Shown: piece by piece, positions 11,119-41,674 of the stretch
How positions within the stretch are numbered: the first letter of the stretch is position 1
How the letters are laid out: every line of letters begins with the position of its first letter
Source of the DNA: a virus
IMG/VR virus record: IMGVR_UViG_3300042544_002979
Span: 1-41,674 of that record
DNA: 41,674 nucleotides
Strand: one strand, 5' to 3'
Program-made: the position numbers and the translations under genes
Notes under the pieces: generated by a model
Seen by the model: only the letters and a program-made list of their open reading frames with translations
Databases searched by the model: none
What the model was told of the DNA's origin: nothing

Positions 11119-14100
11119 TTATATTTTTCCAATCTCAAAATTAAAGGTCAGAGAGTAGTTCTGGTTTACATCTAAAGCGTATTCAAACTCATAGGTCAAA
11201 GATGTTCTTTGAGTTAGCTTAAAATTAGGCTGTGGAACATATCCATATTTAATTTTGTCCGGATTAATTAAATCCCCTCTTACTAAAATTTGGGTAGAAG
11301 TTAAAGGCTGTCCTCTTTTTAGAACAGAAAGATTTAGTTGTTTCCCTTCGTAGATCGGAACTATATTCTGGTCTATGTAAGTTTTGATGTCATCCTGGAT
11401 GTCATTAGGATTACCAACTCCATATTCGGTAATTATATTATTGATAAAAACAGAGCTTATTCCAGAATTCAGAATATATCTTCTTAGAATTCGATCTAAT
11501 CTAATCACACCATACACAAGATTAGCAACGGGGTCTTTTTGCCAGAATACCTCAATATCAGGATAAATGCTCTCGTCTAATTTAGAAAGATCCACCCCTG
11601 AGAGAGCAGGACCCAATTGACCTATCCCTGTGTTTGACTGGGAAGGGGTCATTGACTGGATAGTTGAGGTTGCAGATTGAGCTTCTAAATTTATAACTTG
11701 CGGATCTGAAGTCCCTTCTGTTTTGGAAATTTCCAAAGCTATAAAAGTGTAAGTGCTAATAGTTCCGGGAGTTTGCATCATTTTAGATCCCATGAAAGTC
11801 TTATATTCTAGCATGGCTCTAGTTCCCGCAACTGGAGTTTGATCCACGCTGCTGGTGTAAAGATTGTAATATCCAGGATCCCAAGTCGAAGAGAAAATAG
11901 GGAAATTCTTTTTCTCGATTGGGGTTTCTCCAATTAATGGATAAACAGATCCCTGTGCAAGATTTTGCGATGCGCTAAGAATATTTTTACCCAGGGAGAC
12001 CTTAGTGTAACTAAGATTGTCAATTAACCCAAATCCTATCTTCTCAGGTGCAAATGTGCAGTTTCTGTAGCTAAGATCGATTCCAGTAGCTCCTGTAATT
12101 GTATCTATCTTGTCATTTTTATACATGATAGATTTCTTAAATGCAGGTTCATATCCTCCGGAATATCTTAGAATATCAGCAGATAGAGAAATTCCACCGT
12201 TGATAATATCATATCCAGTAGGTTGATTTTGTCCTAAGGTCTGTGGACCCGAATAGCTCTTCACTGGAGTTGTTCCAGTAGGTTTTTTAATAGCAGTTGG
12301 CTGAACAAAAGAAAGATCAAAGTAATCCGAAATTGATACTGTTTCCTGTGTTGTTTTATTCCAGTCGTAAGTTGTATAAGTAATATAAGAACTTTCTGTA
12401 TTTACTTGATTAGCTATGTAAGACAGGGATAATCTTTTTAGAATAAAATCAAAATAATTTTCTCCTCCTTCAATCTGTACAACTGGTTTACCCTTATAAG
12501 CTCCTTGAGAAGCTAGAGGAATATTTAAAGTTGGTCCAGGATAAGTTGGAGAAAAAGGAATATCGAAATAATAATTGCTTGGATTAGTAGGTCCAAAATT
12601 AACCACATTCTGTGATCTTCCGGTAGGCCAAGGATAGTAAGAATAAGAAGAAGAACCTGCAAGAACTTTAAAAGTTCCAGTAGTTCCTAATGTTCCAAAT
12701 CCTGCGATTCCGGTAGATCCTGAGGGATAGTATAAATTTATTTCTTCTCTTAGATCTGTATCATACTCAGGATTTGGGATGATGTAAATTTGACCATCTA
12801 CAGATTGACCGCAATTACTATTAGAGGAAAAAGAAAGATCTAATGCTGCACTCAATTTTATATCATCGATAGCATACAAAGGTGATCCAGTTGGGCCTGG
12901 GTTTCCTGTAATTCCAACGTCCGTCTTTTTCTTTTTACCGCTTAGTGAATACATGAGAAGATAATCCAAATAAGGATCTCCTCCAGTACCTCCGGTATAT
13001 CCTATCGGAAGGGCTCTGTAATCTTTGATCACTGCATAAGTAACAAATAGAATAGATTTTTGAGTTACATTTTCAATAACCTCATATCTAACTGGAGATT
13101 GTATAATTGATGGATCTTCTGGAATAACCCTCAGAATAGAAGAAAATTTATAATCTTGGAAACCCCTAAAGTTAGGAACAAATTTTTCTAGATCATTTTT
13201 TGGATCAGGTAAAGTACTTCTTCTTTTCAGAGAAATTTTAATCCCTCTGAAAATCGTATCATAAAAACCAGTTACACTATTATACTTAAAGGGGGTAAAG
13301 AATTCTTTTACTTCATTAACATCGGTATTATATGGTGATGGATAATCGATAGGATCTACAGTGAAATATGAATTGAAGTAATCCGCATCTGAAGGATCTG
13401 CATTCTTTGCTCTTTCTAAATCTATCTTATATGGTAAATAATTATTTTGGGAAATGATACCATCAATAGGAAATTCTCTAGGAACACCTTCTAGAAGCAT
13501 CCACTCGTGGGTGAAATATTGAGGAGACGGAAAATCCTGCTGGAATCCTGGCGAGAAATTAGTTGGGGTAAAAGCTGGGCTAACATTTAGCCTATAAGCA
13601 TTTCCTCTAGCGTCGGTTCCGCCGTTATAAACCCATTTGTTTATATAAGGAACTATTCTAGATTTATTTGCTCTTGTTACTGTGTAATTCTCTTCTAGAT
13701 ATTGATATTCGGTAGATAATTTACCATATTCAAATAAGGTTTCTTTAACATTCTCGTCGAAATTACCAGACGGATTGAGACTTTGTATTCCGTAGAACCC
13801 ATTAAACGAATTTAGATCTTGCTCTGAAGCAACAGTTGTTCCGTAGTTATAAGGTGAAGTTGATCCGTAGGAAACAGAATTTACATATCCCATCCGGGTA
13901 AAAACAGCAGGAAGAACTATGGCAGGTTGATTATTTAAATTTAGATCCTGAAAAGATGTTGATCCTAAACAAATAAAAACACTTCCTTGATTAACTACCC
14001 TTTGATTGACTGTTCCTCTTTCAACCACAATAGATCCTCTTCTAACATAGTATTTAACACCAAACTTAAGCTGATCGTCTTGATTTGGTATCAATTGAAA

Positions 14101-17049
14101 GTATCTGTGAAATTCTGAAGTTGGAGTTATTCCATAAGTAGAAGACCAGAAATCAAAATCTATTTCCTTCATATCAAAGAAAGAAAATACCCCGGTGTAT
14201 AAATTAGTCATGCTATAAACATTAAAACTAGAATTTGATCCTAGATTAATAACTGCACGATCATCAGATAGGGTAGCAACTAAATATTCCTTATATCCAG
14301 AAAATCCGGTTACGGTTCCTGTCGTTGAGGTAATATCGTTATCATAAATTGGGGAATCTACATATCTGGTAACACTAGAAATCATAGATAATCCACCGGT
14401 AATTCCCTTTCCGCTTTCAACTTCTATCCAATTCCCAGGAATAACATTTCCGGATTCTAGATTAGAGAATACAACCCTATTTTTTGAATAATCGGTTCCC
14501 CCTTGAAATTTCTGGATATAAGATATTTGAGATGCATCTACCCCTGCTATGCTAACATACCCAGGATAAGAAAAAGGATAATAAAGTGTCCAATCCGAAC
14601 TTTGGTCTGGGGAAGGATTATAATTAAAGGAATTCTGAGGAACTGCAGATACAGACTTATAGTATGTGTTATTATAGATAACTATATTCCCTACTGAATA
14701 AGCAGAAATATTGTTCCAAACTCCTTGATAATTAGATTCAAATGTGGTATAATCGGAGAAAACAGTAATTTGGTATTCGAGATTCTGTTTAGATCCTGGG
14801 TTTTTAACTCTAATGATAGAATCTGCATCGGATGTTCCCGCATCCCAAACCACAGTAGAAATATCAGAAAAAGAACCAGAGAATGCCTTAGCTACTTCTG
14901 ATGTTGTTCCTTGATACCAATTGAAATAATAGTTATTCCCTGCAGCATAGTGAGATCCAGAAGACCAAGACAGAAGTGTTCCGGCATAATCCCCTGATGT
15001 TATTAAATCATATTTACTTCCCAATTCTCCTCTTGATCCGTTTGGCCAGAATATTTTGAATGTCACAGGAAGAGTAAGATCTAGATTTTTCTGGAAAGTC
15101 ACATTTGTGTAAGCCTTTCCTTTTTGTCCGTCTATTTTTCCAATATAAGAACCAATTTTTTCATCAGGTCCAGTAAAATCTAATAGATTTACACTGGTGT
15201 CACTAATAACCAAAGATCCGGTTTTTATAGAGCTTGATCCGGTGGTTCCAAAATAATATGACCCGGATAAAGTGTATCCAGTAGATCCACCTATAAAAAT
15301 ATAATTTGAAGTTTGACCAGGTATAAATCCTGTGCTTCCGGTAACTACACCTGGGCCTGAAGATAAAACTGTAGGGATCTGGAACGAATTTCCAGTAGCA
15401 CCTAAAGGAATAGTAATCCTCCAAGATCCTTCAATTTGTTGACTTGGCCCTGAAATAGTAACTAGATCATTGTCGGAAAGACCGTGATTAGATTCTGTTA
15501 CAATATTGACATATCCATATTGGCTTCCGCTAACTAATAAAGAATAAGCTTTAGTTATTTTTTGAACGTCTTGATAATAAGGTCCAAATTTTAAATAGTC
15601 TGGCGTGTTATTTAACCAATCTCCTAAAGAATATGTGTTAGTGTAAGGGTTATATGACAAGGGAGCCCCATTTTTTTCATAGTTCTCATATCTAGATAGG
15701 CTATAAAATCTGTCATATTTGTCAGTTACATAATAAAGTTTTTGAGGGTCGTAAATGTTCACATCTTCAGATCCCGGCATCCATCCAGAAGCTCCTTGAT
15801 AATAAAGTCTAACCCCTCCAGTGCTACTTTGGAAAGCCGGAGTTGAACTATAATAATATCCTATGTTATTTCTAGAAGGCTTTGGAAGATTTAAATTGTC
15901 AGAGGCATTCTTATTGTCAAAGAAATATTGACCATTTAATTTGAATTCACCCACGTCGTTTCTAGAAACATAGAATCCAAAATATCTATTGATAGAATAT
16001 AAATCAGCATCAGGATCATCGAACAGGAATTCCATGTTTAGAAGATTTGGACAAATTATTCCATTTCTAGAAAATCCATCTGTGATATATTCTTCAAAGT
16101 CAATCTGAGAACTCGAATTAGGAGAAGTTAAATAGGAATTTAAAAATTCTCCTTTTTGGGTGTAAACCCCATTCTTTATACTAATCCCGTTGTAGTAGCT
16201 ATAAGTGTTTGATTGTAAACTGAAATCAAAAGGATTTGGATTAAATCCAGGGTTAGCAACAATAGATCTGATATATCTTCCAATGTTAGTTTTAGATCTT
16301 AGATCAAATGTAGCAATTGCTTGAGCATTTGGAAGGATCTTAGAATTAAAAAATTGCTCGACGTTATTCACGTCTGCGTAGTTTTTTAATTCATCCATCA
16401 GAGTTACTGAACCTGATCCTTGAACGATCGTATACGTGCTGTAAATGCTATTACCGTTGAAGAATTCCCCATCTGCGTAATTTTGAAAAGAACTAGTTTC
16501 ATTGTTCCAATATTGAATAATGAAAGGTTCTGTTGAGTCTGGACTTGCTATTACTTTATATTGAGACCCGTTAGCTATAGTATCCACATTGGCTGGATAT
16601 GGATAACTTATAGGATTTGGAACTTTAAAAATAACAAAATAATCAGGAATAACGTCTCTTATCCAAAGAGGCTGAAAATACCTAAAATTTTCTGGATAAT
16701 TTTTATCAACTAGAGTTGAAGCCCCGGATGCATAGAAAAAATCATATTGTGAACTAAATGTATCCGCTGGTTGTCTAGCACCATTTGTGAAATTTCCAAC
16801 CTGAAAAACTATATCGTTTGGGGTATTTCCTTCATCGAAGAAATTGTGAACATCTTTAGCATACGTGTTCTGTCCAGTAACGCTAAACTTTTTATATTTC
16901 TGAAGACTTAGGGTTGGATTTACGTCCATAGAATTAAGCCAGATCCCACCTGTGGAATCTAGTGTTAATTTTAAATTTCCTGTTAGTTTTGGATTAGTCC
17001 TAAGTACCCCGAAGGAACTATTGTAATCAAATAGTTTTTCTGTTGTCAT
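11119..17049 (-). CDS. Very large virion structural protein, 1,976 aa
   Basis: The largest gene in the window. It begins MTTEKLFDYNSSFGVLRTNPK and is rich in Tyr, Ser, Asn and Gly throughout, with no membrane segment or recognisable enzyme motif. Around residues 500-580 there is a compact module (SGSQYGYVNI, then HGLSDNDLVTISG, then GSWRITIP, then NSFQIP). It recurs in the 1,414-aa baseplate-like protein and resembles the FCCH-type beta modules seen in many tail proteins. Another segment near residues 820-850 (GVWNNISAYSVGNIVIYNNTYYKSV) looks like a small carbohydrate-binding-type motif with paired aromatics. The far C-terminus (FKLTQRTSLTYEFEYALDVNQNYSLTFNFEIGKI) is a strand-rich cap. A baseplate or tail-tip assembly role is inferred from context; I do not recognise the family. 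Confidence 0.7.
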   Translation of the reverse strand: MTTEKLFDYNSSFGVLRTNPKLTGNLKLTLDSTGGIWLNSMDVNPTLSLQKYKKFSVTGQNTYAKDVHNFFDEGNTPNDIVFQVGNFTNGARQPADTFSSQYDFFYASGASTLVDKNYPENFRYFQPLWIRDVIPDYFVIFKVPNPISYPYPANVDTIANGSQYKVIASPDSTEPFIIQYWNNETSSFQNYADGEFFNGNSIYSTYTIVQGSGSVTLMDELKNYADVNNVEQFFNSKILPNAQAIATFDLRSKTNIGRYIRSIVANPGFNPNPFDFSLQSNTYSYYNGISIKNGVYTQKGEFLNSYLTSPNSSSQIDFEEYITDGFSRNGIICPNLLNMEFLFDDPDADLYSINRYFGFYVSRNDVGEFKLNGQYFFDNKNASDNLNLPKPSRNNIGYYYSSTPAFQSSTGGVRLYYQGASGWMPGSEDVNIYDPQKLYYVTDKYDRFYSLSRYENYEKNGAPLSYNPYTNTYSLGDWLNNTPDYLKFGPYYQDVQKITKAYSLLVSGSQYGYVNIVTESNHGLSDNDLVTISGPSQQIEGSWRITIPLGATGNSFQIPTVLSSGPGVVTGSTGFIPGQTSNYIFIGGSTGYTLSGSYYFGTTGSSSIKTGSLVISDTSVNLLDFTGPDEKIGSYIGKIDGQKGKAYTNVTFQKNLDLTLPVTFKIFWPNGSRGELGSKYDLITSGDYAGTLLSWSSGSHYAAGNNYYFNWYQGTTSEVAKAFSGSFSDISTVVWDAGTSDADSIIRVKNPGSKQNLEYQITVFSDYTTFESNYQGVWNNISAYSVGNIVIYNNTYYKSVSAVPQNSFNYNPSPDQSSDWTLYYPFSYPGYVSIAGVDASQISYIQKFQGGTDYSKNRVVFSNLESGNVIPGNWIEVESGKGITGGLSMISSVTRYVDSPIYDNDITSTTGTVTGFSGYKEYLVATLSDDRAVINLGSNSSFNVYSMTNLYTGVFSFFDMKEIDFDFWSSTYGITPTSEFHRYFQLIPNQDDQLKFGVKYYVRRGSIVVERGTVNQRVVNQGSVFICLGSTSFQDLNLNNQPAIVLPAVFTRMGYVNSVSYGSTSPYNYGTTVASEQDLNSFNGFYGIQSLNPSGNFDENVKETLFEYGKLSTEYQYLEENYTVTRANKSRIVPYINKWVYNGGTDARGNAYRLNVSPAFTPTNFSPGFQQDFPSPQYFTHEWMLLEGVPREFPIDGIISQNNYLPYKIDLERAKNADPSDADYFNSYFTVDPIDYPSPYNTDVNEVKEFFTPFKYNSVTGFYDTIFRGIKISLKRRSTLPDPKNDLEKFVPNFRGFQDYKFSSILRVIPEDPSIIQSPVRYEVIENVTQKSILFVTYAVIKDYRALPIGYTGGTGGDPYLDYLLMYSLSGKKKKTDVGITGNPGPTGSPLYAIDDIKLSAALDLSFSSNSNCGQSVDGQIYIIPNPEYDTDLREEINLYYPSGSTGIAGFGTLGTTGTFKVLAGSSSYSYYPWPTGRSQNVVNFGPTNPSNYYFDIPFSPTYPGPTLNIPLASQGAYKGKPVVQIEGGENYFDFILKRLSLSYIANQVNTESSYITYTTYDWNKTTQETVSISDYFDLSFVQPTAIKKPTGTTPVKSYSGPQTLGQNQPTGYDIINGGISLSADILRYSGGYEPAFKKSIMYKNDKIDTITGATGIDLSYRNCTFAPEKIGFGLIDNLSYTKVSLGKNILSASQNLAQGSVYPLIGETPIEKKNFPIFSSTWDPGYYNLYTSSVDQTPVAGTRAMLEYKTFMGSKMMQTPGTISTYTFIALEISKTEGTSDPQVINLEAQSATSTIQSMTPSQSNTGIGQLGPALSGVDLSKLDESIYPDIEVFWQKDPVANLVYGVIRLDRILRRYILNSGISSVFINNIITEYGVGNPNDIQDDIKTYIDQNIVPIYEGKQLNLSVLKRGQPLTSTQILVRGDLINPDKIKYGYVPQPNFKLTQRTSLTYEFEYALDVNQNYSLTFNFEIGKI

Positions 17050-23920: not shown

Positions 23921-24607
23921 ATGGATCAAAAACAAACCGCCAACAAAAACGCTGTAAAGAGAAAACCTAAAGGTGAAATCAAATTTGCACTCGCTCTAAA
24001 CGAAGAACAAAAAGCAGCAAAATCAGAAATCCTAAAAAATGTAGTTACCTTAGTAAAGGGACAGGCAGGATCGGGAAAAACTCTATTAGCTTGTCAAATA
24101 GCTCTAGATCTATTCTTTAATCGAGAAATCGAAAAGATTATCATCACCAGACCAGTAGTTGATGCAGCAGATCCAATGGGATTTCTTCCTGGGGATATTA
24201 AAGCAAAGATGGACCCTTGGTTAGCTCCTATTTACGCAAACCTTTACATGCTATACAACAAGGAAACTATCGACAAAATGATAGAAAGTCAGACTATAGA
24301 AATTCTGCCTTTTACATTCGTTAGGGGTAGAACTTTCGTAGATGCTATGGTTATCGTGGACGAATGTCAAAACGTTAACGGAAAGCAAACTGAAATGATA
24401 GTAGGAAGACTTGGTACAAATTCCAGAATGGTATTCTGCGGGGACACTTCTCAGATAGATTTAAGATCTAAGAAAGACTCAGGAATAGACTTCTTCAAAA
24501 TTCTAGAAGCTAGAGTTGAGGGGGTTAAAGTAATTACTCTTCTAAAGAACCATAGAAATCCTATCGTTCCTAAAATTCTCGATATCTACAGAGAATACGA
24601 ATCTTAA
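23921..24607 (+). CDS. phoH: PhoH-like P-loop ATPase
   Basis: 228 residues, the usual length for phage PhoH (short form with only the ATPase domain). Walker A is GQAGSGKT (47-54), Walker B is MVIVDE (143-148) followed by CQN, the sensor-like motif is CGDTSQIDL (173-181), and the terminal KNHRNP (209-214) includes the arginine-finger position. The N-terminal 22 residues are a lysine-rich extension. PhoH proteins are RNA-binding ATPases related to helicase superfamily 1; the phage role is unproven. It is the only plus-strand gene, divergent from the 298-aa gene. It converges on the propeller gene with a shared TTAA that supplies both stop codons. No Shine-Dalgarno sequence. Confidence 0.95.
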   Translation: MDQKQTANKNAVKRKPKGEIKFALALNEEQKAAKSEILKNVVTLVKGQAGSGKTLLACQIALDLFFNREIEKIIITRPVVDAADPMGFLPGDIKAKMDPWLAPIYANLYMLYNKETIDKMIESQTIEILPFTFVRGRTFVDAMVIVDECQNVNGKQTEMIVGRLGTNSRMVFCGDTSQIDLRSKKDSGIDFFKILEARVEGVKVITLLKNHRNPIVPKILDIYREYES

Positions 24608-29955: not shown

Positions 29956-32900
29956 TTATGGTCCTGTTGCGTATGTGAAAGATACTATCAGTTCAGGAGG
30001 TGCTCCAGGAACTGTTGGTGGTGCTGAATATCCTCCTGCTGTTGCTCCAAAAATGCTAAAAGATGTTTGTACTGGACCGTTTGTTGTCAGAAGATCATCA
30101 GACCCATAAGGAGTAACCCTATAATAAAAGTTAGCGATATGGGGATCTGTAGAGCTGTTTAATTCACTTACTGCTCCACCTAAGGTGATATATCCTGTAG
30201 GACCCGTAACTCCTCCAGTCGCGCTAAAAGTAACCCCTACGGGGAAAGGAAACGTCTCATTCCCAGTACTAACTTTGATATTGTCGCCAACTTTAATACT
30301 ATGAATTTCAAATCCACCAAGCCATCCGTTTTCATACTCAAAATCATACCATCCGTGAGCATAAGCTTCATCCCAAGTTGAGGTTGGAATAGAATCCCAA
30401 TTTAAATTTTGTGTTCCCCAATATCTCAGATTTTCGTCAGGAAAACTTCCATAATTTTCGTTCCAGGTAATATATTGAGTTCCAGAAGTTCCACCTCCAG
30501 AAAAGGTAGAATCTATGGAAACTACCGAAAGGGACCCGGTAACAACTGCAGTTAAAACGTCTCCATTTCCAACGTTTCCAGAATCTGTGTTTGCTAGAAT
30601 ATTTAAAGTAGCAGGAATAGAATTAGGAGCGGTGGATCCTGCAAAATAATCTGGCTGGGTATAAACTGAATTTACAACTTCAACTATAGAATTAACTGTA
30701 GATTGTAGACTTGCCCCTGCTGAGGTAGCTCCAATCACTCTTCCGTTTACTGAAATAGAAATATTCCCTCCTCCCGTAACAGTCTGGTCAGGATAATATC
30801 CAGGATCAATATAGGTTGAGGTAGCTCCTGGAGTTGTCGGAGCTATCACACCAGGTCCTCCTACTAGAGCTACAGGTATTTCAAAAGAATTCCCAGTTGA
30901 TCCAGTTGGTATAGTAATATTCCAAGCTCCATTAATCTGAGGGGAAGATCCGGTAATAAAAACTAAAGAACCCTCTTCAAAATTATGGGGCTGATTGGTA
31001 AATATCTGTACAAACCCATACTGGCTTCCTGAGATAAATGCAGAGTAAGCAGAATCAATAGAATATACGGCCTGTTGAAGAACAATATTACCGGATGCCC
31101 CAATTGGATTAATTGGAACTTTAACCAGCATATCTTGGGTTCCTTGAACATTGTTTCCATAAGTTGAAAACTCAAGAACCTCCGGAGGAATTCTATTAGT
31201 TAGTTCTTGAATAGTTTTTCCTTCTGCAGGATACTCCCAGATTGATTCATAAGAATCCCAATTTCTAACTGTTTGATCCCACAGATAATTCTCATTTTCT
31301 CTGTATCTAGTCCAAGCATTTATATCAATTTGAATCGGATCAACTTTAATTAATGAATTTTTTATGACTTTACTCTGATAGTTAAAAGAGTCATAAACTG
31401 TACATGTAATATTGTACTCACCAACATAAGGAAGGAAATGAGCCATTTTGTAATAGTCCATAATCAGTCCTCTCTTCTTGAAATAATATGGACTTCCCGG
31501 TTGAGAGGTTGGCTTCTCAATTATCCATTCTATTTCAGTGTAAGTTGAAAAATCTATATTTGCCCAGGTTAGTAACTGGGTATCTTGAATTGAAGATGTC
31601 AATAAATTTGCAGATAGAGTTACTATAGAAAAATCAGAGGAGAGTCTAACGCTATAGGTTTGTAGATCATAGGAAGCAGAAAGAATCTGCCCTCCAACAC
31701 CCCCGGTTGTTCCGGTTGGTCCAGTTGGTCCATAAAAAGGACCATTTGGATCTTGATATGTTTTAACGTCTATCAAATCACCAACTTTAAATTCAGGCAA
31801 TTTAAGGGAATTCCAGCTGATACCCATTTCGTCCCAGATCCATTGATCAAGAATAGATTCCAGAATCACTGGCATTCCTATCGGATTTTGATAAGGCAAT
31901 CCTGTAGCGGGATCAGTAAATAGTATAGGATCTGATGTACCGTCGCCTAAAAATTTTATTCCATTGTTTTCCTTCAGAGTGTAGAAATTAGCAATAGCAG
32001 TTTGCATTGCAGAATTCTGGGTAGAATTATAGATCTGATTATCAGCTAAAGGAAAGGATACGTTTCCAAAATCAGAAATGCTAGAGTCTACAATATTAAT
32101 ACTTCCAAACATTTTGCTAGGATTTACGCTTGAATAATAATAAATCGTAGTTTGCTCTTGTGGATTAACATTTATAGAAACAACAGATCCGGTAGAACCT
32201 CCATAAGACCCATTATTAATTACTCCAAGTGGATCAGATTGAGCCAAAGAAGGATTTGTAGTTAAATAGAAATCGTAGTTTGAACTTGAAACCGTGAAAT
32301 TATAAGTCTTTCCTTTTTCAAAAGTTAGAGTTGGATTATAACCAGCAACACCAGAAAAAGTAAGAGCATCACCAGAAGGACCTGCAACAGAAACGGTATA
32401 ATCTACAACGTTGAAGTAGTTCATAGGAGTCTGGATAGAATTTGGATATGTTCTCAGACTGAATGCTCTAAGATCTTCTATGAATCCCTTAGGAGGATTT
32501 GATTTTACATCTAGATAAAACCCAGACTCAATATCATTTCTTTCCATTGAGTCCGTCCACGATTTGGTATTATAGACTTCAAAATAAACACCTTCACCAG
32601 TTATATCAACGATTCTAGCATTTAGTGGAAGATATGTTTGTTTAAGTCTTTGCTTTAAAGCAAATAGTTTTACTAGAATTTCTTCCTGGCTAAAAATGAA
32701 TGCTTCTTGTGTAATAGGGTATCCATAAGGATCCTCCAGATCTGTAGATTTATTCAAATCATAGTAAAGACCAAATAAAGATGTTTTCTTGTAAGTTTTG
32801 CTTGGAAGAAGTGTGTCCTCTCCAGAAACATTTAAAACGTAATTCCCATCAGCATCTGGACCATAAGTTTCCTGAAGCCTATATTTTCCACTATTTTCGT

Positions 32901-34200
32901 TATCTAGAAGGTCTGCAATCTGAATTGACTGATTGACCATGAAACTTTGATCATACTTATTCAGAAAATTCTGATTTTCTAAAAGTGGACTAAGTTTAAC
33001 TTTTTGGTATGCAAGATTTAACCAATACTCTTTTATTCTCAAATCTTGATAGCCAAAGAATTGGAGTGCTCCTATTAAACCTTTATAAGCTCCGATATAT
33101 GGGAAGATTTCTTCCCCTGCAACCATCAGCTCTTTTCTCTTTTCGTTAATCTCTATCCAGTTTGGAAGCGGCTCATAAGGATCATGTCCCCTTAGAATAT
33201 TAGAATCGATTTGGTAGAAAGCTCTTCCTAAATTTGCTGTTAGTACATCAAGTCTCGAATCTTCCCCTATGATTTGACCATAAAATAAAATTTCCAAAAC
33301 TTTCTCCGGAGTCCCAGAAGTTAAGTCCTCAACTATTAATCTTCTTTCATATACCTCTGCTGCAACATCCGGAGCATTTAAAGCAACGTTAATTGTCAAT
33401 GCAGAAGAATCTACAGAAGTGGTTTGTAGATAACCTGGATAAGCTATGGAATAAAAATCACCTGATTCTTGGGTAACTGGAATAGCAATATTTTGATAGT
33501 TTACTATTGCAGGAAACCCATCAATATCAGAGTCGTGAGGAGTTATTTTATACGTGAATATAATTTCAGTAACATCGGTATTTCCGTAAGTGTCATTTGC
33601 CCATCTCGTTCTCCATATATTAGCTCCAGTTCCTCCGGTTGCATTTGTATGCGGATAACCCAATTCTAGAGATCCTGAATTTACTAGCTCTTGAACAACA
33701 AAGATCTGCTGATTTTCATAAAGTCCAGCAGATACAGGATCAAAATACACTTCCCCGTAGAAGTACCCTCCTGGGAGATTTGTGTATTCGGTGGTTAAAA
33801 TGATGCTATTGTTATTTGAAATTATCGTAGACCCTACGATTTTACTAATATCAAGAACAACAACGCTGCCAGCAAAAGAAACATTAGTAACTCTAAAGTT
33901 TAAACTATTGGCAGGATAAACTGCAAAATTTACTCTAATCGTTGCTCCGTTGATAATTGAGCTTAAAACTTCATTTGCCCATGGAAGAATAGAAGATCTA
34001 TTTTGATCTGTTGAGTTAAGATATAAAACTCCAGAGTCTACGTCTGAAAAGGAAACATATCCCTGTGATGGGGTAGATCCAGTATTTGTAGAAAGATACG
34101 AAAAGCTAAAATCCAGATCCACAGAACCGGTTGGTCCTACGTATTGGTAGTTTAAAGGATCTCCTTGTTTGTCAAAAAATCTTAAGTGTAGATTAGCCAT
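29956..34200 (-). CDS. Giant baseplate wedge-like protein (tail protein I / gp7-like N-terminal part), 1,414 aa
   Basis: It lies in the place of T4 gp7, downstream of the gp25- and gp6-like genes. About residues 320-395 carry a segment typical of tail protein I-like wedge partners (YQIDSNILRGHDPYEPLP, then NWIEINEKRKELM, then YIGAYKGLIGALQFFGYQDL, then KEYW). The region to about 560 continues with helices (FALKQRLKQTYLPLNARIVDI). The C-terminal half is a chain of beta modules, including an SGSQYGFVQI...NSFEIP module (about 1050-1130) shared with the 1,976-aa protein. Its ATG overlaps the previous stop as TAATG, so coupling is expected. The wedge role is inferred; gp7 itself is about 1,030 aa in T4. 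Confidence 0.55.
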   Translation of the reverse strand: MANLHLRFFDKQGDPLNYQYVGPTGSVDLDFSFSYLSTNTGSTPSQGYVSFSDVDSGVLYLNSTDQNRSSILPWANEVLSSIINGATIRVNFAVYPANSLNFRVTNVSFAGSVVVLDISKIVGSTIISNNNSIILTTEYTNLPGGYFYGEVYFDPVSAGLYENQQIFVVQELVNSGSLELGYPHTNATGGTGANIWRTRWANDTYGNTDVTEIIFTYKITPHDSDIDGFPAIVNYQNIAIPVTQESGDFYSIAYPGYLQTTSVDSSALTINVALNAPDVAAEVYERRLIVEDLTSGTPEKVLEILFYGQIIGEDSRLDVLTANLGRAFYQIDSNILRGHDPYEPLPNWIEINEKRKELMVAGEEIFPYIGAYKGLIGALQFFGYQDLRIKEYWLNLAYQKVKLSPLLENQNFLNKYDQSFMVNQSIQIADLLDNENSGKYRLQETYGPDADGNYVLNVSGEDTLLPSKTYKKTSLFGLYYDLNKSTDLEDPYGYPITQEAFIFSQEEILVKLFALKQRLKQTYLPLNARIVDITGEGVYFEVYNTKSWTDSMERNDIESGFYLDVKSNPPKGFIEDLRAFSLRTYPNSIQTPMNYFNVVDYTVSVAGPSGDALTFSGVAGYNPTLTFEKGKTYNFTVSSSNYDFYLTTNPSLAQSDPLGVINNGSYGGSTGSVVSINVNPQEQTTIYYYSSVNPSKMFGSINIVDSSISDFGNVSFPLADNQIYNSTQNSAMQTAIANFYTLKENNGIKFLGDGTSDPILFTDPATGLPYQNPIGMPVILESILDQWIWDEMGISWNSLKLPEFKVGDLIDVKTYQDPNGPFYGPTGPTGTTGGVGGQILSASYDLQTYSVRLSSDFSIVTLSANLLTSSIQDTQLLTWANIDFSTYTEIEWIIEKPTSQPGSPYYFKKRGLIMDYYKMAHFLPYVGEYNITCTVYDSFNYQSKVIKNSLIKVDPIQIDINAWTRYRENENYLWDQTVRNWDSYESIWEYPAEGKTIQELTNRIPPEVLEFSTYGNNVQGTQDMLVKVPINPIGASGNIVLQQAVYSIDSAYSAFISGSQYGFVQIFTNQPHNFEEGSLVFITGSSPQINGAWNITIPTGSTGNSFEIPVALVGGPGVIAPTTPGATSTYIDPGYYPDQTVTGGGNISISVNGRVIGATSAGASLQSTVNSIVEVVNSVYTQPDYFAGSTAPNSIPATLNILANTDSGNVGNGDVLTAVVTGSLSVVSIDSTFSGGGTSGTQYITWNENYGSFPDENLRYWGTQNLNWDSIPTSTWDEAYAHGWYDFEYENGWLGGFEIHSIKVGDNIKVSTGNETFPFPVGVTFSATGGVTGPTGYITLGGAVSELNSSTDPHIANFYYRVTPYGSDDLLTTNGPVQTSFSIFGATAGGYSAPPTVPGAPPELIVSFTYATGP

Positions 34201-34775: not shown

Positions 34776-36503
34776 TTATCTATTTGCAGCTATTAATTGT
34801 GCTTTAGTTTCAGCATTAAGTTCAGAAAGATAATTAACAGGGACAAATCCACTAATTGAAATATTCAAAGCAGAAGGTTTACCTGGTACTACCCCAAGTT
34901 CATAGTACATCCCATTTCTATCGTTCCATCCCCCTCTCAAAACTACTAGTTCTCCCCTCCCAATAATAATGTCTCCGAATTGATCAAATCCTATATTAGT
35001 TGTAAGCTGACTTGTGCTAACGTTAGGGAGGAAATCTACAGTTGCATGGTAAGCTTCATTGGCTTGTCCTACAAAATAGAAGCTAACCGAGTCAACCCCA
35101 GGAATAGATTCTATAAGAGCAATCATATCAGACTTTGGAATTTTATCTCTTCTCTTTAGATTTATCATGTAAGAAGAAATAGAAGCTTGAATCTTATCTT
35201 TAATAATCTCAGGATCATATCCCTCGAAAACAGTTAGAACTGCGTTTCCTACAAACCTTTGAATAGTAGGCTCTATTATTTTAACAACAGTAGTTGCTAT
35301 CATAGACCCTGAATCTTCAATAAGATTTAAAATTGCCAATTTTTGTGCATTCGTCAAAAGAAAACTTGAAAGAGGAATACTAAAATAGTCCTCATTAGAA
35401 GATAAACCTATCGTTATATCAGGAATTAAATACAAGTAAACAACATTATCGTCATCTAAGTATTCATCATCAAAGGTAGAAAATGCTTGTATCTGAGAAA
35501 ATATATTAAATCTCTGTAAGTAAATTTCATAGTTTCCAGCATTAGCAAAAACAAAAGCTCTGCTTGTCTTCGGAGCTGCAAGTCTTGTAATAGAAATTGG
35601 TTCTTCATTAGCTCCAAAAGAAGGATCTACCGTATTGACAATTTGAAGGTAGTCATTAAGATTTACTTCTGCCCCAAATAAATCAGTACCTGTATCTAAA
35701 AATCTGTAAGTAATTTTACTGGTAGAGGTAGATCTAAGATTTCCAGCAAATCCTAGAGTTTGTAAATATTGAACTTTAATCAAAGATCCTCTTGGTGGAA
35801 CTTTTCCAAAATTAGAATTTCCAAAATAAATGTCTATTCCCTCGCTAATTCCGGTCTTTACTAAATACCCTTCTCCCTGAAGAGGAATATCATAGAGAGA
35901 ATCATATTTTTTCCATTTGTTATCGTTGACTGTAGTGTTGATATAAAATTGATCAACAAGAGATCCTCCTTTGATTGGGATGTTAAAACTTTGGAGTGCA
36001 GCCCCGTTTCCAGTAAATATAGTCTCATTAAAAGTTCCTTGCACAATTTTAAACCTAAAAGAATTTCCTCTGGTTAAAGGAATCTTTACTCTAGGTCCAT
36101 TTAGAATAATAGTATAAACGAGTCCATTTTGATCACATTGGATTCTGGTATTTTCCTGTAGTAAAACTGCTCCGCCTCCAGTGGTAGTTGCTTTAGTGTT
36201 CCAGGAGACTTCAATTTCACCTTGGGCTCCCATGGCTCTTGCAGGATCATATCCTGCTATTCTAGCCAAACTTCTAACCGAGTAGTCTCTAGTAGCTTCA
36301 TAGATATTTAATTCTGTAATCGAATCTTCGATGAAGTAAAGAATTAGCTGGGATAGGTTTTCAAGAACAAATAATATTTGTCCCCAAGCAGAAGCAGTCG
36401 TAAAGACATTTCTTGTTTGATTGAAAGTTTGCTGCAAGAAATTATAGGTCGTGTTTAAAAGACCTCTAATTAAAATATTATTTTTCTGAAAAATATTATT
36501 CAT
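34776..36503 (-). CDS. Baseplate wedge protein, gp6-like (baseplate J family)
   Basis: 575 residues, a little shorter than T4 gp6 (660). The N-terminus is helical (40-75, GQILFVLENLSQLILYFIEDSI), then YSVRSLARIAGYDPARA (74-90) and GEIEVSW, as in gp6-type proteins. The hallmark of the baseplate-J fold is at 227-239 (FGNSNFGKVPPRG), followed by IKVQYLQTLGFAGN (242-255). The C-terminus has the conserved helix and strand pair around SMIATTVVKIIEPTIQRFVGNAVLTV. It forms the inner ring of the contractile baseplate with the gp25-like protein encoded 9 bp upstream. Confidence in the family is high; the exact T4 equivalence is inferred. Confidence 0.85.
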   Translation of the reverse strand: MNNIFQKNNILIRGLLNTTYNFLQQTFNQTRNVFTTASAWGQILFVLENLSQLILYFIEDSITELNIYEATRDYSVRSLARIAGYDPARAMGAQGEIEVSWNTKATTTGGGAVLLQENTRIQCDQNGLVYTIILNGPRVKIPLTRGNSFRFKIVQGTFNETIFTGNGAALQSFNIPIKGGSLVDQFYINTTVNDNKWKKYDSLYDIPLQGEGYLVKTGISEGIDIYFGNSNFGKVPPRGSLIKVQYLQTLGFAGNLRSTSTSKITYRFLDTGTDLFGAEVNLNDYLQIVNTVDPSFGANEEPISITRLAAPKTSRAFVFANAGNYEIYLQRFNIFSQIQAFSTFDDEYLDDDNVVYLYLIPDITIGLSSNEDYFSIPLSSFLLTNAQKLAILNLIEDSGSMIATTVVKIIEPTIQRFVGNAVLTVFEGYDPEIIKDKIQASISSYMINLKRRDKIPKSDMIALIESIPGVDSVSFYFVGQANEAYHATVDFLPNVSTSQLTTNIGFDQFGDIIIGRGELVVLRGGWNDRNGMYYELGVVPGKPSALNISISGFVPVNYLSELNAETKAQLIAANR

Positions 36504-36512
36504 CTATGTTAA

Positions 36513-36884
36513 TTATGTTACCTGTAATGTTATGATTGGACTCTTTGTTGATTGAGAGGAAATATAAAAATCTATTGTGGCTATATCCCTCATAGTTCCC
36601 TGATAAAATTTCAAATCAAAGTATCCACCAAGTTCATAGAACAAAGTGCAATAAGTGTTGATTTGAAAATCTATTTCTTTTTTGATAGAAGTTTCGGAAA
36701 GCTCCAAATTAAAAACTAATTCATCTAAGCTAATTCCAAATTCAGGGTCACCTAAAACTTCTCCTTTGTTGGTTAAAAGAAGCATCTTCAATTGACCTAT
36801 GCAGATCTCGATGGGATCTGTAGTTTCAAGTATTCCTTCTTTATATCCGAAGTCTCCTGGATCTCTATTGTAAATCTCTATCAT
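36513..36884 (-). CDS. Baseplate wedge protein, gp25-like
   Basis: 123 residues against 132 in T4 gp25. The core is ICIGQLKMLLLTNKGEVLGDPEFGISLDELVF (27-58), the signature of the gpW/gp25 family (iL-T-x-x-G-E ... PeFG-x-x-L-x-x-l-F). A two-helix region and a strand-rich C-terminus (ATIDFYISSQSTKSPIITLQV) complete the fold. It starts the baseplate block after the 167-bp spacer, with a GATATATA element 20 bp upstream and no Shine-Dalgarno sequence, and is followed directly by the gp6-like gene. The gp25/gp6 pairing is a near-universal baseplate arrangement, which supports both calls. Confidence 0.9.
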   Translation of the reverse strand: MIEIYNRDPGDFGYKEGILETTDPIEICIGQLKMLLLTNKGEVLGDPEFGISLDELVFNLELSETSIKKEIDFQINTYCTLFYELGGYFDLKFYQGTMRDIATIDFYISSQSTKSPIITLQVT

Positions 36885-37051: not shown

Positions 37052-37825
37052 TTAATTCCACTGAAGGAAATATGAAGGAGTATTCTCACCATTTATCATT
37101 TCCATTACCTCCTGCATCTCTGCATCTCCCATTGCTTTTATCTCTGAAAAGTTAACTTGAACTCCACCTGGAAGATTATAATTGAAAGCACCAATAACTC
37201 TTGCTAAACTTTGCTTTGCTTTTGCTCTGCAGTATCTGGAGAAAAGTTCATCGTCAAATAACTCATGATCTTCAATTGCAACAAAGCAGCTAACTGCCAC
37301 GGACTTAACATAGTTGTTCGGCCCAGTTCCCACGTTGTTAGGTGATCCTGCAGGATTTCTTCCTAGTATCGTAAGTTTCTTAGTGTTCTTGTTCCATCTG
37401 AATGCAAAAGTTTCTAATAAATAAGCTTTAGCTAAATCGAAATAAGAATACATTACTGTTCTATAAACCAAGTTGTCTCCCATAAAAGGAGATAGAAGAA
37501 GTTCAGAACCAAGAAGTTTTGAACTCCCAAAGTCTCTGTCGGGGTTTCCAGAAACACCAGGATTATTTGCTTCCCTGACATCGAAAACTGTTACAATCTT
37601 ATCCGGAAGTTGAATTTGTCTCGTCTTTAGAAATTCTTGTGTAGAAAAAAGAGTAGAACCTAGAACAAAGAATCTTTGCTCTACCGCATATTGATAGTTA
37701 TCATACATCCAAGCTTTCGCTCTATTGATAATTCTAATTATTTCTTGATCGTTTAAATTGTATGGAAGGGAACAAGATGCGGAAAGATCGTCTTTAATGT
37801 CTTGTATTAATTCTGCTTCAGTCAT
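37052..37825 (-). CDS. Neck/connector-like protein, 257 aa
   Basis: Opens with MTEAELIQDIKDDLSASCSLP and a helix with IIRIINRAKAWMYDNYQYAVEQRFFVL (29-55). It has a beta strand pair IQLPDKIVTVFDVRE (71-85), then LVYRTVMYSYFDLAKAYLLETFAFRWNKNTKKLTILGRNP. The C-terminal part has helices rich in Ala and Arg (FSRYCRAKAKQSLARVIG). This plan (helix, strand pair, helix, long strand, Arg-rich helix) recalls head-tail connector or tail-completion proteins, such as those of the T4 gp13/gp14/gp15 region, but I cannot match a family. It ends at the 167-bp spacer and starts 5 bp after the amidoligase-like gene, so it belongs to that transcript. Other small virion assembly proteins are possible. Confidence 0.45.
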   Translation of the reverse strand: MTEAELIQDIKDDLSASCSLPYNLNDQEIIRIINRAKAWMYDNYQYAVEQRFFVLGSTLFSTQEFLKTRQIQLPDKIVTVFDVREANNPGVSGNPDRDFGSSKLLGSELLLSPFMGDNLVYRTVMYSYFDLAKAYLLETFAFRWNKNTKKLTILGRNPAGSPNNVGTGPNNYVKSVAVSCFVAIEDHELFDDELFSRYCRAKAKQSLARVIGAFNYNLPGGVQVNFSEIKAMGDAEMQEVMEMINGENTPSYFLQWN

Positions 37826-37830
37826 TTTAG

Positions 37831-39249
37831 TTATAGTTTTTTATACTTCCAGTTTTGATCTTTGAAAGATTGAGGTTTATAAAGAGTATTTGAGTCCTTT
37901 AATCTAGAATCGGAAACGAATCTAGCTTTTCTAACGTCATCAAAATCTTTCACCTCTTCAGTTTCTTTAGAAACTTTTGCATTTCTTCCAAGATCTGCCT
38001 TTCTAATTACTCCACCTTTTATATTACAGTCTATGGATTTTCCTGCGCAGTCTATATAACACTCTTCTAAACTATTAGAATATTCAGCAGATGTGTTTTT
38101 AACTTTGCTATTTTCGATTGTATTTCCTGTTAGTAATTGAGAATCTTCTACTTGGCAATTTTTAACTTTACAAGAATAAAGATTGCAATTGATAACTCTA
38201 GATCCTTTGATGTCACAATTAAGAAGGTCAAAATCTGTAATATAAGAAGCATCCCTGCATCTTGCATCTTTTAACTGAAATCTTCCTGTTGAAGTATCAT
38301 AATTAAAGAACCCGTGACGAACTCCCCCTTCTACGATAAGATCAAAAACTTTGTCTCTGATCATAGGGAAATAAGTCTTGATGTTCTCTTCAAATCCTTT
38401 TAGATCCACCAACAAGTGGAAATCTGGATAATTCATGAAGAAAGCTCTAGGATCCGAAAAACTTTTTACTACCTTTGAGTATTCTTTCATCATTTTCTTT
38501 AACGTATCAAGATCTTTCTGTGAATATGTAGATCTTCCGCTGAGAATATTATAAAGATGAATTATGACATAGTCAAGAATTTCTCTAATTTCAGATATTT
38601 TCTTTTGATAATCTCTACCTCCTAAATATCTGATTTCGATATAGCCGTCTTTTAATTTTGTAAAATTAGCTCCGTAATATTTGTCGTCCGGAAGTTTGAA
38701 TAACTTAGGATCAATTGTTGTTAGATCGTCAATAGAAGAGAATCTATTTCTAGGAACTATCTTCTTGATTGACTTTGCATAAACGTTATTCATTCTATTT
38801 CCAAACTTAGAATAGATCATTCCCTCGTCAATTCCTAAAATGAATTGAAGTCTGTCAAGATTTTCCATTCTCATTCCTACATCTTTTCTCATTTTATCAA
38901 AACTGATATTAAACTGAAAAGCACATTTATCATTTGTCCACCCGTTTTCATCTATCCATTTAAGAACTTTGATGAGAACCGGAATTGCTTCGGCATATGG
39001 AAGTGGACCAGTGATAAGCTCGTTCATTTTACTCCCCCCTGAATAATCAGGCTCAAGTTTAAAAACGGATTGGGTAACTGGAATTTTTGAGTGGTATCTA
39101 GACGAAAGTATTACTTTTTTTCCTAATAACTTAGATAGGGATTCCACAATTCTTCCTCTAACCATATTGGAAAAGAATTCGAATTCAAATCCAATTATGG
39201 AAGCATTTAGAGCTTGTAGTCTATCAAAGTGATTTTGGAAATTAGCCAT
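37831..39249 (-). CDS. Amidoligase-like protein with C-terminal Cys-rich beta-helix, 472 aa
   Basis: Residues 1-300 resemble glutamine-synthetase-fold amidoligases (COOH-NH2 ligases): GFEFEF (20-25) as the first strand with acidic metal ligands, ELITGPLP (77-84), CAFQFNIS (109-116) at the place of the usual C-G-x-H-V-H-x motif, YYGANF (191-196) and YIEIRYLGG (203-211) for the typical T-I-E-F-R strand. The normal His of the third motif is replaced, so activity is uncertain. Residues about 328-415 are short repeats (CDIKGSRVINCNLYSCKVKNCQVEDS) of a pentapeptide or beta-helix type, rich in Cys. The family typically makes amide or isopeptide bonds with ATP. The start overlaps the S1-like gene by 8 bp. 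A role in modifying virion or host proteins is inferred. Confidence 0.6.
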   Translation of the reverse strand: MANFQNHFDRLQALNASIIGFEFEFFSNMVRGRIVESLSKLLGKKVILSSRYHSKIPVTQSVFKLEPDYSGGSKMNELITGPLPYAEAIPVLIKVLKWIDENGWTNDKCAFQFNISFDKMRKDVGMRMENLDRLQFILGIDEGMIYSKFGNRMNNVYAKSIKKIVPRNRFSSIDDLTTIDPKLFKLPDDKYYGANFTKLKDGYIEIRYLGGRDYQKKISEIREILDYVIIHLYNILSGRSTYSQKDLDTLKKMMKEYSKVVKSFSDPRAFFMNYPDFHLLVDLKGFEENIKTYFPMIRDKVFDLIVEGGVRHGFFNYDTSTGRFQLKDARCRDASYITDFDLLNCDIKGSRVINCNLYSCKVKNCQVEDSQLLTGNTIENSKVKNTSAEYSNSLEECYIDCAGKSIDCNIKGGVIRKADLGRNAKVSKETEEVKDFDDVRKARFVSDSRLKDSNTLYKPQSFKDQNWKYKKL

Positions 39250-40408
39250 TTACGATGTCTGCAAATATTTTACCCATTACTGGGTCAATCTCATATACTA
39301 AAATACCAACTCTGTCTCCAGGTCTGATATCAGCATCTGAGTCTATTCTTTCTTGTGGTATCATAGCCATCAAACCGGATTCTGGTAATTCAACTAAGCA
39401 ACCATTTTTTCTTCTGTATTTAACAATTGCCGCCATTTCTGAAATTGTTCCTTTTTCAACAGCCTCTTTAATTTCATAAAGCTTAACAATTTTTTCTACA
39501 GGTGCTTCAAAGCTAAGAGTTAGTTTATTGTCTTCTTTAACTTCTCTTACATAGAATTCAATTTCGTCTCCAGGATTGAATCCTTGAACGGTTTGATTTG
39601 GAAATTCCGTTTTATGAATTAGACCAGTGTAAAACTCTTCCCATTCAACAAACAAGCCAAATGAAGAAGATCCGGTAACAGTACCTTGGTACTTCTTAGT
39701 TAAATCTAATTCTTGAATTTTTTGACCTATGATTTTGCTTAGATATTTCTTGTAAGAAACTACGAAAATATCTTTTGGTGCAACATAACCGTCTATCATT
39801 ACATAGATTGTTTTACCTACTAGAGATTCAAAATCTGTAATTTTATTTGCTGCTGCAAGTGATCCAGGAAGGAAACACTTAACACCCGAAATGTCAACTA
39901 AATATCCTCCTTTATTAATTGCTTCAACTTTTGCTGGATAAGCTGTAGAAGCAGATTTAATTTGATCGAAGAATTCATCTTTTAAATTTTGTACATAACA
40001 ATCAACAATTGATCCATAATAAGATCCGTCTATTTCCTTAATTAAAGTTTTAATGGATGTTCCTATCGTAAAATCAAGACCTTGTATTCCTAATTTCTGA
40101 GCATCTTTTCTTTCTTTCTTTAGGTCTAAATAGATTGTTTGACCTGAGTCGGTGTGGGCAAATCCACTATCTTTATCTGTGCTAGTAATTCTGCACGTGT
40201 ATACTTTTCCTTCTTCTAAATCCTTTCCTGATTCTAGATTTCCGGGATTGATTCCTCTATATGAAGCATATAATTCTGCAGCATATTTTTCGTGGGAATA
40301 AATTTTGATGTAGCTTGGGGTTTGGATTTTTTTATTTACGATGAATCCGCTGGGTAGATCCCAGTTAAATGTTTCTGTTTCTTTTTCTAATAGAGAAATT
40401 ACTTGCAT
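39242..40408 (-). CDS. S1-domain (ribosomal protein S1-like) RNA-binding protein, 388 aa
   Basis: Contains three to four OB-fold S1 repeats. A degenerate one lies at about 65-140 (GKVYTCRITSTDKDSGFAHTDSG), a second at about 154-222 (AYPAKVEAINKGGYLVDISGV and FLPGSL), and the clearest at 238-300 (KKYQGTVTGSSSFGLFVEWEE, TGLIHKTEF and the closing PGDEIEFYVREVKEDNKLTLSF). The fourth is at 322-386 (AAIVKYRRKNGCLVELPE, PGDRVGILVYEID). The G-x-V-x-x-x-x-x-F-G-x-F-V and P-G-D motifs are diagnostic of S1. The order resembles a shortened bacterial S1 (which has up to six repeats). It probably binds mRNA or ribosomes. It heads a block with the overlapping amidoligase-like gene and has a GATATATA element 30 bp upstream. 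Confidence 0.85.
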   Translation of the reverse strand: MQVISLLEKETETFNWDLPSGFIVNKKIQTPSYIKIYSHEKYAAELYASYRGINPGNLESGKDLEEGKVYTCRITSTDKDSGFAHTDSGQTIYLDLKKERKDAQKLGIQGLDFTIGTSIKTLIKEIDGSYYGSIVDCYVQNLKDEFFDQIKSASTAYPAKVEAINKGGYLVDISGVKCFLPGSLAAANKITDFESLVGKTIYVMIDGYVAPKDIFVVSYKKYLSKIIGQKIQELDLTKKYQGTVTGSSSFGLFVEWEEFYTGLIHKTEFPNQTVQGFNPGDEIEFYVREVKEDNKLTLSFEAPVEKIVKLYEIKEAVEKGTISEMAAIVKYRRKNGCLVELPESGLMAMIPQERIDSDADIRPGDRVGILVYEIDPVMGKIFADIVNG

Positions 40409-40466: not shown

Positions 40467-41063
40467 TTAGATTAATTTATCTTTTAGATATTTTATTATA
40501 TCTGGTAGTGTTGTTGCCCCTCCTGTCAAAATACCCAACTGAATTTGCAATAATCTGACATCTCTCCTCAGATCCTTTACTTCCGTTTGCAGAGTTACTA
40601 TTTCCTTACGTAAGAAACTTACTTCATCGAGAAGAAAATTCACTTCTAAATACTTAAATAGAATTGGAGAGGTATATCCAGAAACAATTTTTCCATAAAT
40701 TACAGACAATTTTTCGGACGACAATCCTTTATCACTTGGATGATCCACCGGATCAATATCAAAAGGTCCAAAATCTGGATACCCTTCGATTCCACTTGGT
40801 ATAGTTAAAGTTAGAGGATCTTCTTTAAAGAAATATATTTCTGATTTTTGTGTATTCCCGTTCGGCAGAATTTTATCTTTTAGAACGAATTCAACATCTG
40901 GAGAAATTGCTTTCCCGACTTCTTTACCTACAGGATTAACTATTTTTTGATATGAATTTACAGAAGCTATTACCTCTTGATATTCTAAATCTGCTTTTTT
41001 TAACGCATTTGAATACTCAGATTCAAATCTTTCGTATATAATTATAAATTGATCTCTGGTCAT
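40467..41063 (-). CDS. Hypothetical protein with C-terminal coiled coil, 198 aa
   Basis: The first 35 residues are a charged helix (FIIIYERFESEYSNALKKADLEYQEV). A Pro/Asp-rich middle follows (about 85-110, LTIPSGIEGYPDFGPFDIDPVDHP) that may be an extended linker. The C-terminus is a clear coiled coil (about 145-178, LDEVSFLRKEIVTLQTEVKDLRRDVRLLQIQL) with regular Leu/Val heptads. No family is recognised. It is 6 bp downstream of the partial hub-like gene. A tail-hub chaperone or a hub-associated oligomeric component is plausible from the position only. Confidence 0.6.
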   Translation of the reverse strand: MTRDQFIIIYERFESEYSNALKKADLEYQEVIASVNSYQKIVNPVGKEVGKAISPDVEFVLKDKILPNGNTQKSEIYFFKEDPLTLTIPSGIEGYPDFGPFDIDPVDHPSDKGLSSEKLSVIYGKIVSGYTSPILFKYLEVNFLLDEVSFLRKEIVTLQTEVKDLRRDVRLLQIQLGILTGGATTLPDIIKYLKDKLI

Positions 41064-41069
41064 GTTCTA

Positions 41070-41674
41070 TTATAGTTTTGTGATTGGATTAATCCCATCC
41101 CCCTCACCTCCGATGGAAACGGTCTTGGATTTTGTTGTCTCTATCATTGGTGCAGTAATGCTTGTCAGTTGGCTTTGAGCTGCTGCTATCTGTGTATTCA
41201 AAACCGTTAAAGCAGGAATAAGTGGTGAAAATATAGGTATTGCAGAGGTAACTGCAGTTTGAGCAATAGAATAAGTCTGCAAAGCAATCATTACTTCGTT
41301 AAGTCTACTCAATAAGGAATTTAGAGCACTTTCGTTATGATCCCCTAAAACTGCTGGTTGTTTACTTTCGTTTTCTAAACCTAAACTAATCTTTCCATCC
41401 TTGATGTGAATGACATTAGCACCCGGTACTTTAGAATTTGAGTTCAGATAGACCGAACTATCCATTCTGATGTTTAGCATGCTACCACCAAAATCCGAAA
41501 CGAATCCTTTACCGTTTTCTCCCCTGGTGAAAAATAATTTCAATCCAGTATCTCCATTTGAATTAACAGCATCCGTGTCATAAATTAGAGATTGAGCTCC
41601 CTCATAAGAATTAGATATTTCATCTAGCAGAGCTGGGGCAGTTTCTTTCTCAAATTCATAGAATATTTTATAGT
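41070..41674 (-). CDS. Hub/spike-like protein, C-terminal part only (5' end beyond window)
   Basis: The frame is open from the right edge to the stop at 41070, about 201 residues. The first in-window residues are YKIFYEFEKE. No Met codon lies upstream of the TTG at 41543, so this is the tail end of a longer gene and not a 157-aa protein starting there. The middle has a Val/Ile/Lys strand region (NIRMDSSVYLN, VIHIKDGKISLGLENE). Next is QPAVLGDHNESALNSLLSRLNEV, a 'P-x-V-L-G-D' helix entry seen at the C-termini of phage baseplate hub or spike proteins. After it comes a long Ala/Ile/Leu helix and a lysine-rich end. I infer a hub/spike or tail-tip protein; another baseplate protein is possible. 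Confidence 0.5.
   Translation of the reverse strand, partial: YKIFYEFEKETAPALLDEISNSYEGAQSLIYDTDAVNSNGDTGLKLFFTRGENGKGFVSDFGGSMLNIRMDSSVYLNSNSKVPGANVIHIKDGKISLGLENESKQPAVLGDHNESALNSLLSRLNEVMIALQTYSIAQTAVTSAIPIFSPLIPALTVLNTQIAAAQSQLTSITAPMIETTKSKTVSIGGEGDGINPITKL

Follow-up and report, generated by a model that had tools for sequence, protein, structure and literature searches.

The S1-like gene and its structural-gene neighborhood

The stretch of DNA analyzed in this study (the window) is a 41,674-base IMG/VR virus record, a fragment of approximately 41.7 kb. An S1-like gene is located on its minus strand among genes for tail and baseplate components, as follows:

34776..36503 (-): gp6/J-like baseplate wedge (phrog_219, E=9e-27)
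36513..36884 (-): gp25-like baseplate wedge (phrog_261, E=2e-4)
37052..37825 (-): head-tail adaptor-like protein (phrog_211, E=6e-11)
37831..39249 (-): amidoligase-like protein with C-terminal pentapeptide-type repeats (Pfam Amidoligase_2, E=2e-4, just under the cut-off)
39242..40408 (-): S1-like gene, an uninterrupted open reading frame of 388 aa with an ATG start, encoding an N-terminal tail and four S1/OB domains co-linear with D1-D4 of bS1
41070..41672 (-): baseplate (hub-like) protein, truncated at the window end (phrog_37871, E=3e-11)

Both the S1-like nature of the frame at 39242-40408 and its position between hub-like and baseplate genes had been predicted from the sequence, and both held: the Pfam, NCBIfam, PDB and hhalign signals were far above chance, and the gene is flanked upstream by the phrog_37871 protein and downstream by the amidoligase-like, phrog_211, gp25-like and phrog_219 proteins. 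The order in the window is baseplate protein (41070), the gene at 40467, S1, amidoligase-like protein, head-tail adaptor, gp25-like and gp6-like wedge, and the S1 stop and the amidoligase-like start overlap by 8 nt. An overlap of 8-14 nt between S1 and the next gene was present at 57 of the 81 loci in which the next gene was found, and at 56 of the 81 its length was either 8 or 11 nt. The amidoligase-like protein is itself strongly conserved, with many invariant residues across 81 relatives, and its combination with pentapeptide-type repeats was seen, among phage records, in huge phages only.

Two other features of the structural region were apparent. A PhoH-like ATPase (Pfam 1.6e-60) at 23921-24607 (+) is the only sizeable annotated plus-strand gene within the minus-strand structural cluster, and a PhoH relative is situated about 7 kb from the S1 gene in the 735 kb phage LR756501. 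In addition, two very large tail-region proteins, encoded at 29956-34200 (-) and 11119-17049 (-), have in common a homologous segment of 40-50% identity over 70-95 aa, corresponding to approximately residues 493-585 of the 11119-17049 protein.

The expectation that nearly all starts in the window lack a Shine-Dalgarno (SD) sequence was confirmed, with no excess over chance: an SD core of at least 5 nt was found at one of the 21 starts (1.2 expected) and a core of at least 4 nt at two (4.8 expected). The starts are A-rich. Bacteroidota ribosomes ignore SD sequences. It is likely that the host of this phage belongs to the Bacteroidota, because relatives of the wedge gene at 34776..36503 occur in Tenacibaculum, Flavobacterium, Chryseobacterium and PAU jumbo phages and because the starts are A-rich and without SD sequences. 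The relatives of its genes also suggest that the window derives from a huge phage.

Relationship of the S1-like protein to bS1

Pfam S1 (PF00575) matched the window protein at E=5e-17 and 62.4 bits, well above the cut-off of 22, in two significant stretches of which the best was residues 239-299, and the NCBIfam rpsA models matched at E~5e-18. Residues 154-300 had been set beforehand as the stretch on which the S1 assignment was to stand or fall, and both Pfam and NCBIfam models matched across it. The rpsA equivalog model TIGR00717 scored 64.8 bits against a cut-off of 577 bits, a threshold that many true Bacteroidota bS1 also miss, but by little. Among PDB entries, bS1 chains matched by sequence at E=1e-12, and hhalign, run with a profile built from 52 relatives, aligned phage residues 64-385 with residues 18-345 of E. 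coli bS1 (99.4% probability, E=3e-21) in the D1-D2-D3-D4 order of bS1. The AlphaFold model (46 sequences; mean pLDDT 80, pTM 0.50) contains four OB barrels at about residues 69-133, 157-218, 239-299 and 325-387, preceded by a low-confidence N-terminal tail. The features of the protein are as follows, all on the minus strand:

40361..40369 (-): F-N-W at codons 14-16, the invariant N-terminal F-x-W, common to Flavobacteriia/Bacteroidia bS1
40010..40204 (-): D1 OB domain, a degenerate S1 (about residues 69-133; AlphaFold strands, hhalign to bS1 D1)
39755..39940 (-): D2 OB domain with the bS1-D2 signature NKGGYLVDISGVKCFLPGS (about residues 157-218; Pfam, PDB match, AlphaFold)
39512..39694 (-): D3, a canonical S1 domain (residues 239-299; Pfam; F250, F253, H265 and K266 invariant in the window clade)
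39248..39436 (-): D4 OB domain, divergent in the window protein (about residues 325-387; AlphaFold, hhalign)

The original prediction of three clear S1 repeats and one degenerate repeat therefore stands as to the number of barrels but not as to their clarity: only D2 and D3 are clear by sequence, D1 is degenerate and D4 is weak, although Pfam recognizes D4 in some relatives. The protein ends after D4, such that the six S1 domains of Gram-negative bS1 were not found and D5-D6 are absent, and no Pfam match to a KH, RNB, PNPase or other catalytic domain was identified within its 388 aa.

Structural comparison agreed with the sequence matches. The top Foldseek matches in the PDB were bS1 in 30S mRNA-delivery complexes (9gut_B, E=1.8e-21, 370 columns), with TM-scores that were low (0.35) because the orientation of the domains is flexible, and no virion protein was among the matches listed. 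Placement in a virion-only family, the other outcome named beforehand as refuting, therefore did not arise. In the viral library the top matches were "30S ribosomal protein S1" and S1-motif proteins from uncultured phages; the BFVD entries A0A6J5NIG6 and A0A8D9CG03 (uncultured phages) and A0A7S9STL2 (Virus NIOZ-UU157) are likewise four-OB proteins, of 373-385 aa, at 24-30% identity (E=2e-27 to 3e-30). As judged by sequence, the window protein is D1-D4 of bS1 specifically, and more than a set of generic S1 domains. A generic S1-repeat protein or an offshoot of PNPase or NusA was ruled out by the rpsA scores, the bS1-specific D2 signature and the bS1 D1-D4 alignment. Like bacterial bS1 (rpsA), the phage protein has a flexible N-terminal tail followed by D1, D2, D3 and D4 in order, and D1 is degenerate in both; it differs in having no D5-D6, in its degenerate D4, in an identity of only ~20% and in its placement in a separate clade.

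In D3, F250, F253, H265 and K266 are invariant in 35/35 window-clade members, at positions equivalent to the RNA-contact residues of canonical S1 domains. One sister clade of the phage proteins (L079-L092), which also has no F-x-W, lacks two of these RNA-face residues, F250 and H265, and its function may thus differ. In E. coli, D1-D3 is the minimal form of bS1 for 30S binding, mRNA docking and mRNA melting, removal of D5-D6 has little effect (the Delta5-6 protein is nearly normal), and Delta3-6 proteins still bind 30S but are lethal (PMC3858243). Since D1-D3 suffice in E. coli and loss of D5-D6 matters little there, the phage protein would, by analogy, represent an almost complete functional core of bS1.

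The N-terminal tail carries a second point of likeness to the host protein. F14 and W16 are invariant in 35/35 non-redundant window-clade proteins and both are flanked by acidic residues, with the remaining positions of the first 25 residues freely variable; the AlphaFold model places both in the disordered, low-confidence tail. To retrieve host proteins, genome contigs were searched with a profile of Flavobacterium-type bS1, and F[NDES]W was present at a comparable N-terminal position in all 80 Flavobacteriia/Bacteroidia-type bS1 so retrieved (for example, NFNWHNFQEGID and DFDWDAYEKG; gut Bacteroidales-type bS1 has ENFDWDAFEKG) and absent from 30 bS1 of other genomes drawn from the phylum. 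FNWTPYEDG in the Lak-A2 S1 protein conforms to an extended form of the host motif, F[ND]Wxx[FY][EQ]xG. Among random N-termini of 60 residues, F[NDES]W is expected with a probability of 0.003, and it was not found in the first 60 residues of any other window protein.

The host F-x-W occupies the position of the phenylalanines by which E. coli bS1 anchors on uS2. In E. coli, the N-terminal tail of bS1 is disordered, Phe5 and Phe9 stack on uS2, and either F5A or F9A abolishes ribosome binding (PMC4288201). By analogy, the Bacteroidota F-x-W may contact uS2 in the same way; a search for a Bacteroidota bS1-uS2 structure found none. Part of the phage S1 family is without F-x-W. The N-terminus of the sister clade L079-L092 (type-2), EYSPEERAxMDxLYEG, resembles the helix before D1 in Bacteroidota bS1 that have no F-x-W (EYSExEYxELKKLYEG), a likeness that is suggestive only.

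Distribution, origin and gene order in huge phages

At least 597 IMG/VR stretches matched the window S1 protein, and an S1-domain protein above the Pfam cut-off was present in each of the 18 long huge-phage records checked (230-735 kb, Lak included). Its phage relatives in GenBank were all in giant genomes, namely the Lak phages of Prevotella (540-550 kb) and uncultured phages of 462-735 kb; the remaining GenBank matches were weak and include a record annotated rpsA with cmk and IHF as flanks, like a chromosomal gene. No S1 relative was detected at E<=1e-3 in the isolated Bacteroidetes jumbo phages (Tenacibaculum, Flavobacterium, PAU) that share the wedge gene.

In a D1-D4 tree of 65 sequences, the phage S1 proteins grouped in a single clade (100/100) whose stem measures 2.6 changes per site, outside Bacteroidota bS1 (99/96) and not within bS1 near the host. 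The tree topology suggests that the phage clade is old and separate, its age itself lying beyond dating by homologue search, and its exact attachment is unsure because of the long branches. The separate clade on its long stem rules out a recent host capture of the sequences in the tree. This differs from the jumbo cyanophage PhiMa05, which also encodes a bS1 and whose bS1 genes group with Vampirovibrio host genes, indicating host acquisition (PMC13157829). On a tree built without the motif columns, F-x-W required three changes, one in hosts and two in phages, which fits convergence.

Other initiation genes occur in some of the 18 S1-carrying huge-phage records: bS21 in four (LR756504, LR756501, LR745206 and LR756502), IF1 in two and IF3 in five. 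bS21 as a regular partner of S1 was rejected on this count and on its absence from the window-clade records, which may be fragments. Complete RNase R-type enzymes, encoded by genes separate from the S1-like gene, were found in LR745206 and LR756504; the RNase R-type genes, each with RNB, cold-shock and S1 domains, are the following:

L235, 1883-3787 (-): RNase R-type gene
L236, 201-2006 (+): RNase R-type gene

The window clade and its sisters at 35-40% identity retain the order S1, amidoligase, adaptor, gp25, gp6 wherever the contig extends, a few of them with insertions, and S1, amidoligase, adaptor and wedge are retained, with insertions, in LR756500 (462 kb). S1 directly follows the tail-tube gene in LR756504 and LR756501, and in LR745206/LR756502 two other structural-region genes have homologues 5-8 kb away from it. 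It is unlinked from the amidoligase and wedge genes in the 634-735 kb phages. In Lak it is among genes for a tRNA-His guanylyltransferase, an RNA ligase and a DnaB helicase, with none of the window tail genes within 15 kb. Because the Lak gene stands apart from tail genes, linkage to the tail genes is common but not obligatory, with shared late expression probably its reason. An obligate tail protein is weakened as a candidate by the unlinked genes of Lak and the 634-735 kb phages, and the setting of the Lak gene amid tRNA/RNA and replication genes fits a role in RNA or translation better than an obligate virion role. The amidoligase as a constant partner of S1 (e.g., in a RimK-like ribosome modification) was dropped, because LR756501-4 and LR745206 have the two genes at distant positions and Lak yielded no amidoligase relative at E<=1e-5.

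A possible role in translation initiation

We consider it reasonably probable that the window protein is a shortened, late-expressed mimic of bS1 that docks on the host 30S subunit and aids the start of phage mRNAs without SD sequences. The flexible F-x-W tail and D1-D2 would dock at the usual bS1 site, by analogy with E. coli, and D3, aided by D4, would hold A/U-rich, SD-less phage leaders and feed them into the mRNA channel. Owing to the placement of its gene in the tail/baseplate operon, the protein is probably made together with the late structural proteins, at the peak demand for initiation on phage mRNA, and it would supplement or displace host bS1 and not build a new ribosome. This mechanism draws on the homology and co-linearity with bS1 D1-D4, the four OB folds, the invariant F-x-W and D3 residues, the linkage to the tail operon and the SD-poor starts; the companion genes for bS21, IF1 and IF3 in relatives were also counted in its favor, and the degenerate D4 of the window protein against it. 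As F-x-W is missing in part of the family, and F250 and H265 in one sub-clade, the mechanism cannot be identical in all. bS1 raises initiation on SD-less mRNA in F. johnsoniae (PMC9976891). The late mRNAs of the phage have the same SD-less leaders as those of the host, which counts against a preference for phage mRNA. Of the roles first proposed, an S1-like factor acting on host ribosomes is favored by the bS1 D1-D4 match and the host-like F-x-W, and an RNA-decay partner was set aside given the lack of a nuclease domain and the separate RNase R gene.

It is also possible, albeit unlikely, that the protein is a virion component, either an OB-repeat part of the baseplate or neck or one that is packaged, injected and active on ribosomes immediately upon entry. 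OB folds are common in baseplates, and a virion role would suit a gene that stays with baseplate and neck genes throughout the window clade and its sisters and that adjoins the tail-tube gene in LR756504 and LR756501. A cultured relative with proteomics was looked for, and none came to light. Its sequence and fold are nevertheless those of bS1 with RNA-face residues kept, the matches listed include no virion protein, the Lak gene is away from tail genes, and the jumbo phages that have the same wedge gene showed no S1 relative at E<=1e-3. Host bS1 autoregulates rpsA, and by that model the phage protein would bind its own polycistronic tail mRNA and tune translation of the baseplate genes; the overlap with the next gene and the fixed order are consistent with this regulation, but Lak and the 634-735 kb phages have a different gene order, and we view such regulation as improbable.

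A part in RNA decay or antitermination, in the manner of PNPase or NusA, seems very improbable indeed: the weak NCBIfam matches to the PNPase and NusA S1 domains that suggest it are much weaker than those to rpsA, there is no KH, RNB or PNPase domain, D2 bears the bS1-specific signature, and the RNase R of relatives, which has an S1 domain of its own, is encoded separately. Lastly, the protein could act in host shut-off, as a dominant-negative bS1 that sits at the uS2 site and, with its RNA-binding half reduced, depresses initiation on host mRNA, in line with its retained docking half, absent D5-D6 and degenerate D4 and with the lethal, 30S-binding Delta3-6 proteins of E. coli (PMC3858243). 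We regard this as rather unlikely, since the window clade has a canonical, invariant D3, bS1 without D5-D6 (Delta5-6) behaves almost normally (PMC3858243), and the tail-operon position suggests expression that is late for a shut-off factor.

If the protein is a bS1 mimic, its tail may also be matched to the class of host. We tentatively propose, while leaning somewhat against it on balance, that huge phages of Bacteroidota, at least Lak and the window clade, convergently gained a host-like F-x-W docking peptide on an ancient phage D1-D4 S1, giving a phage bS1 matched to the host class, and that a phage missing the motif would dock on a host with a bS1 that is missing it too.

The general idea that huge phages hijack initiation with an S1-like protein is already published: Al-Shayeb et al. 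(2020) described a possible rpS1 in huge phages, tied it to missing SD sequences in a hypothesis on initiation, and warned that a true rpS1 is hard to confirm (PMC7162821). The window protein belongs to the same gene class, with the same proposed role and link to missing SD sequences; it is a multi-S1 protein in an SD-poor gene set, the huge size being judged from relatives of a 41.7 kb fragment. In the parts of that article consulted here there is no mention of co-linearity with bS1 D1-D4, of an F-x-W like that of the host or of the fixed, amidoligase-overlapping place in a tail operon (PMC7162821), nor were these found in the literature searched, whose coverage was incomplete. These three, the specific host-like candidate docking motif included, appear to be new here.

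The presence of an S1 gene would not surprise a specialist, but a docking motif, if it works, would. F-x-W turns the general proposal of S1 hijack by huge phages into a point-mutant test (F14A/W16A). A widespread phage protein with the docking half of bS1 and one clear RNA-binding domain would be a natural minimal tool for the role of bS1 in Bacteroidota, and it could help to address the question of how Bacteroidota ribosomes choose their mRNAs.
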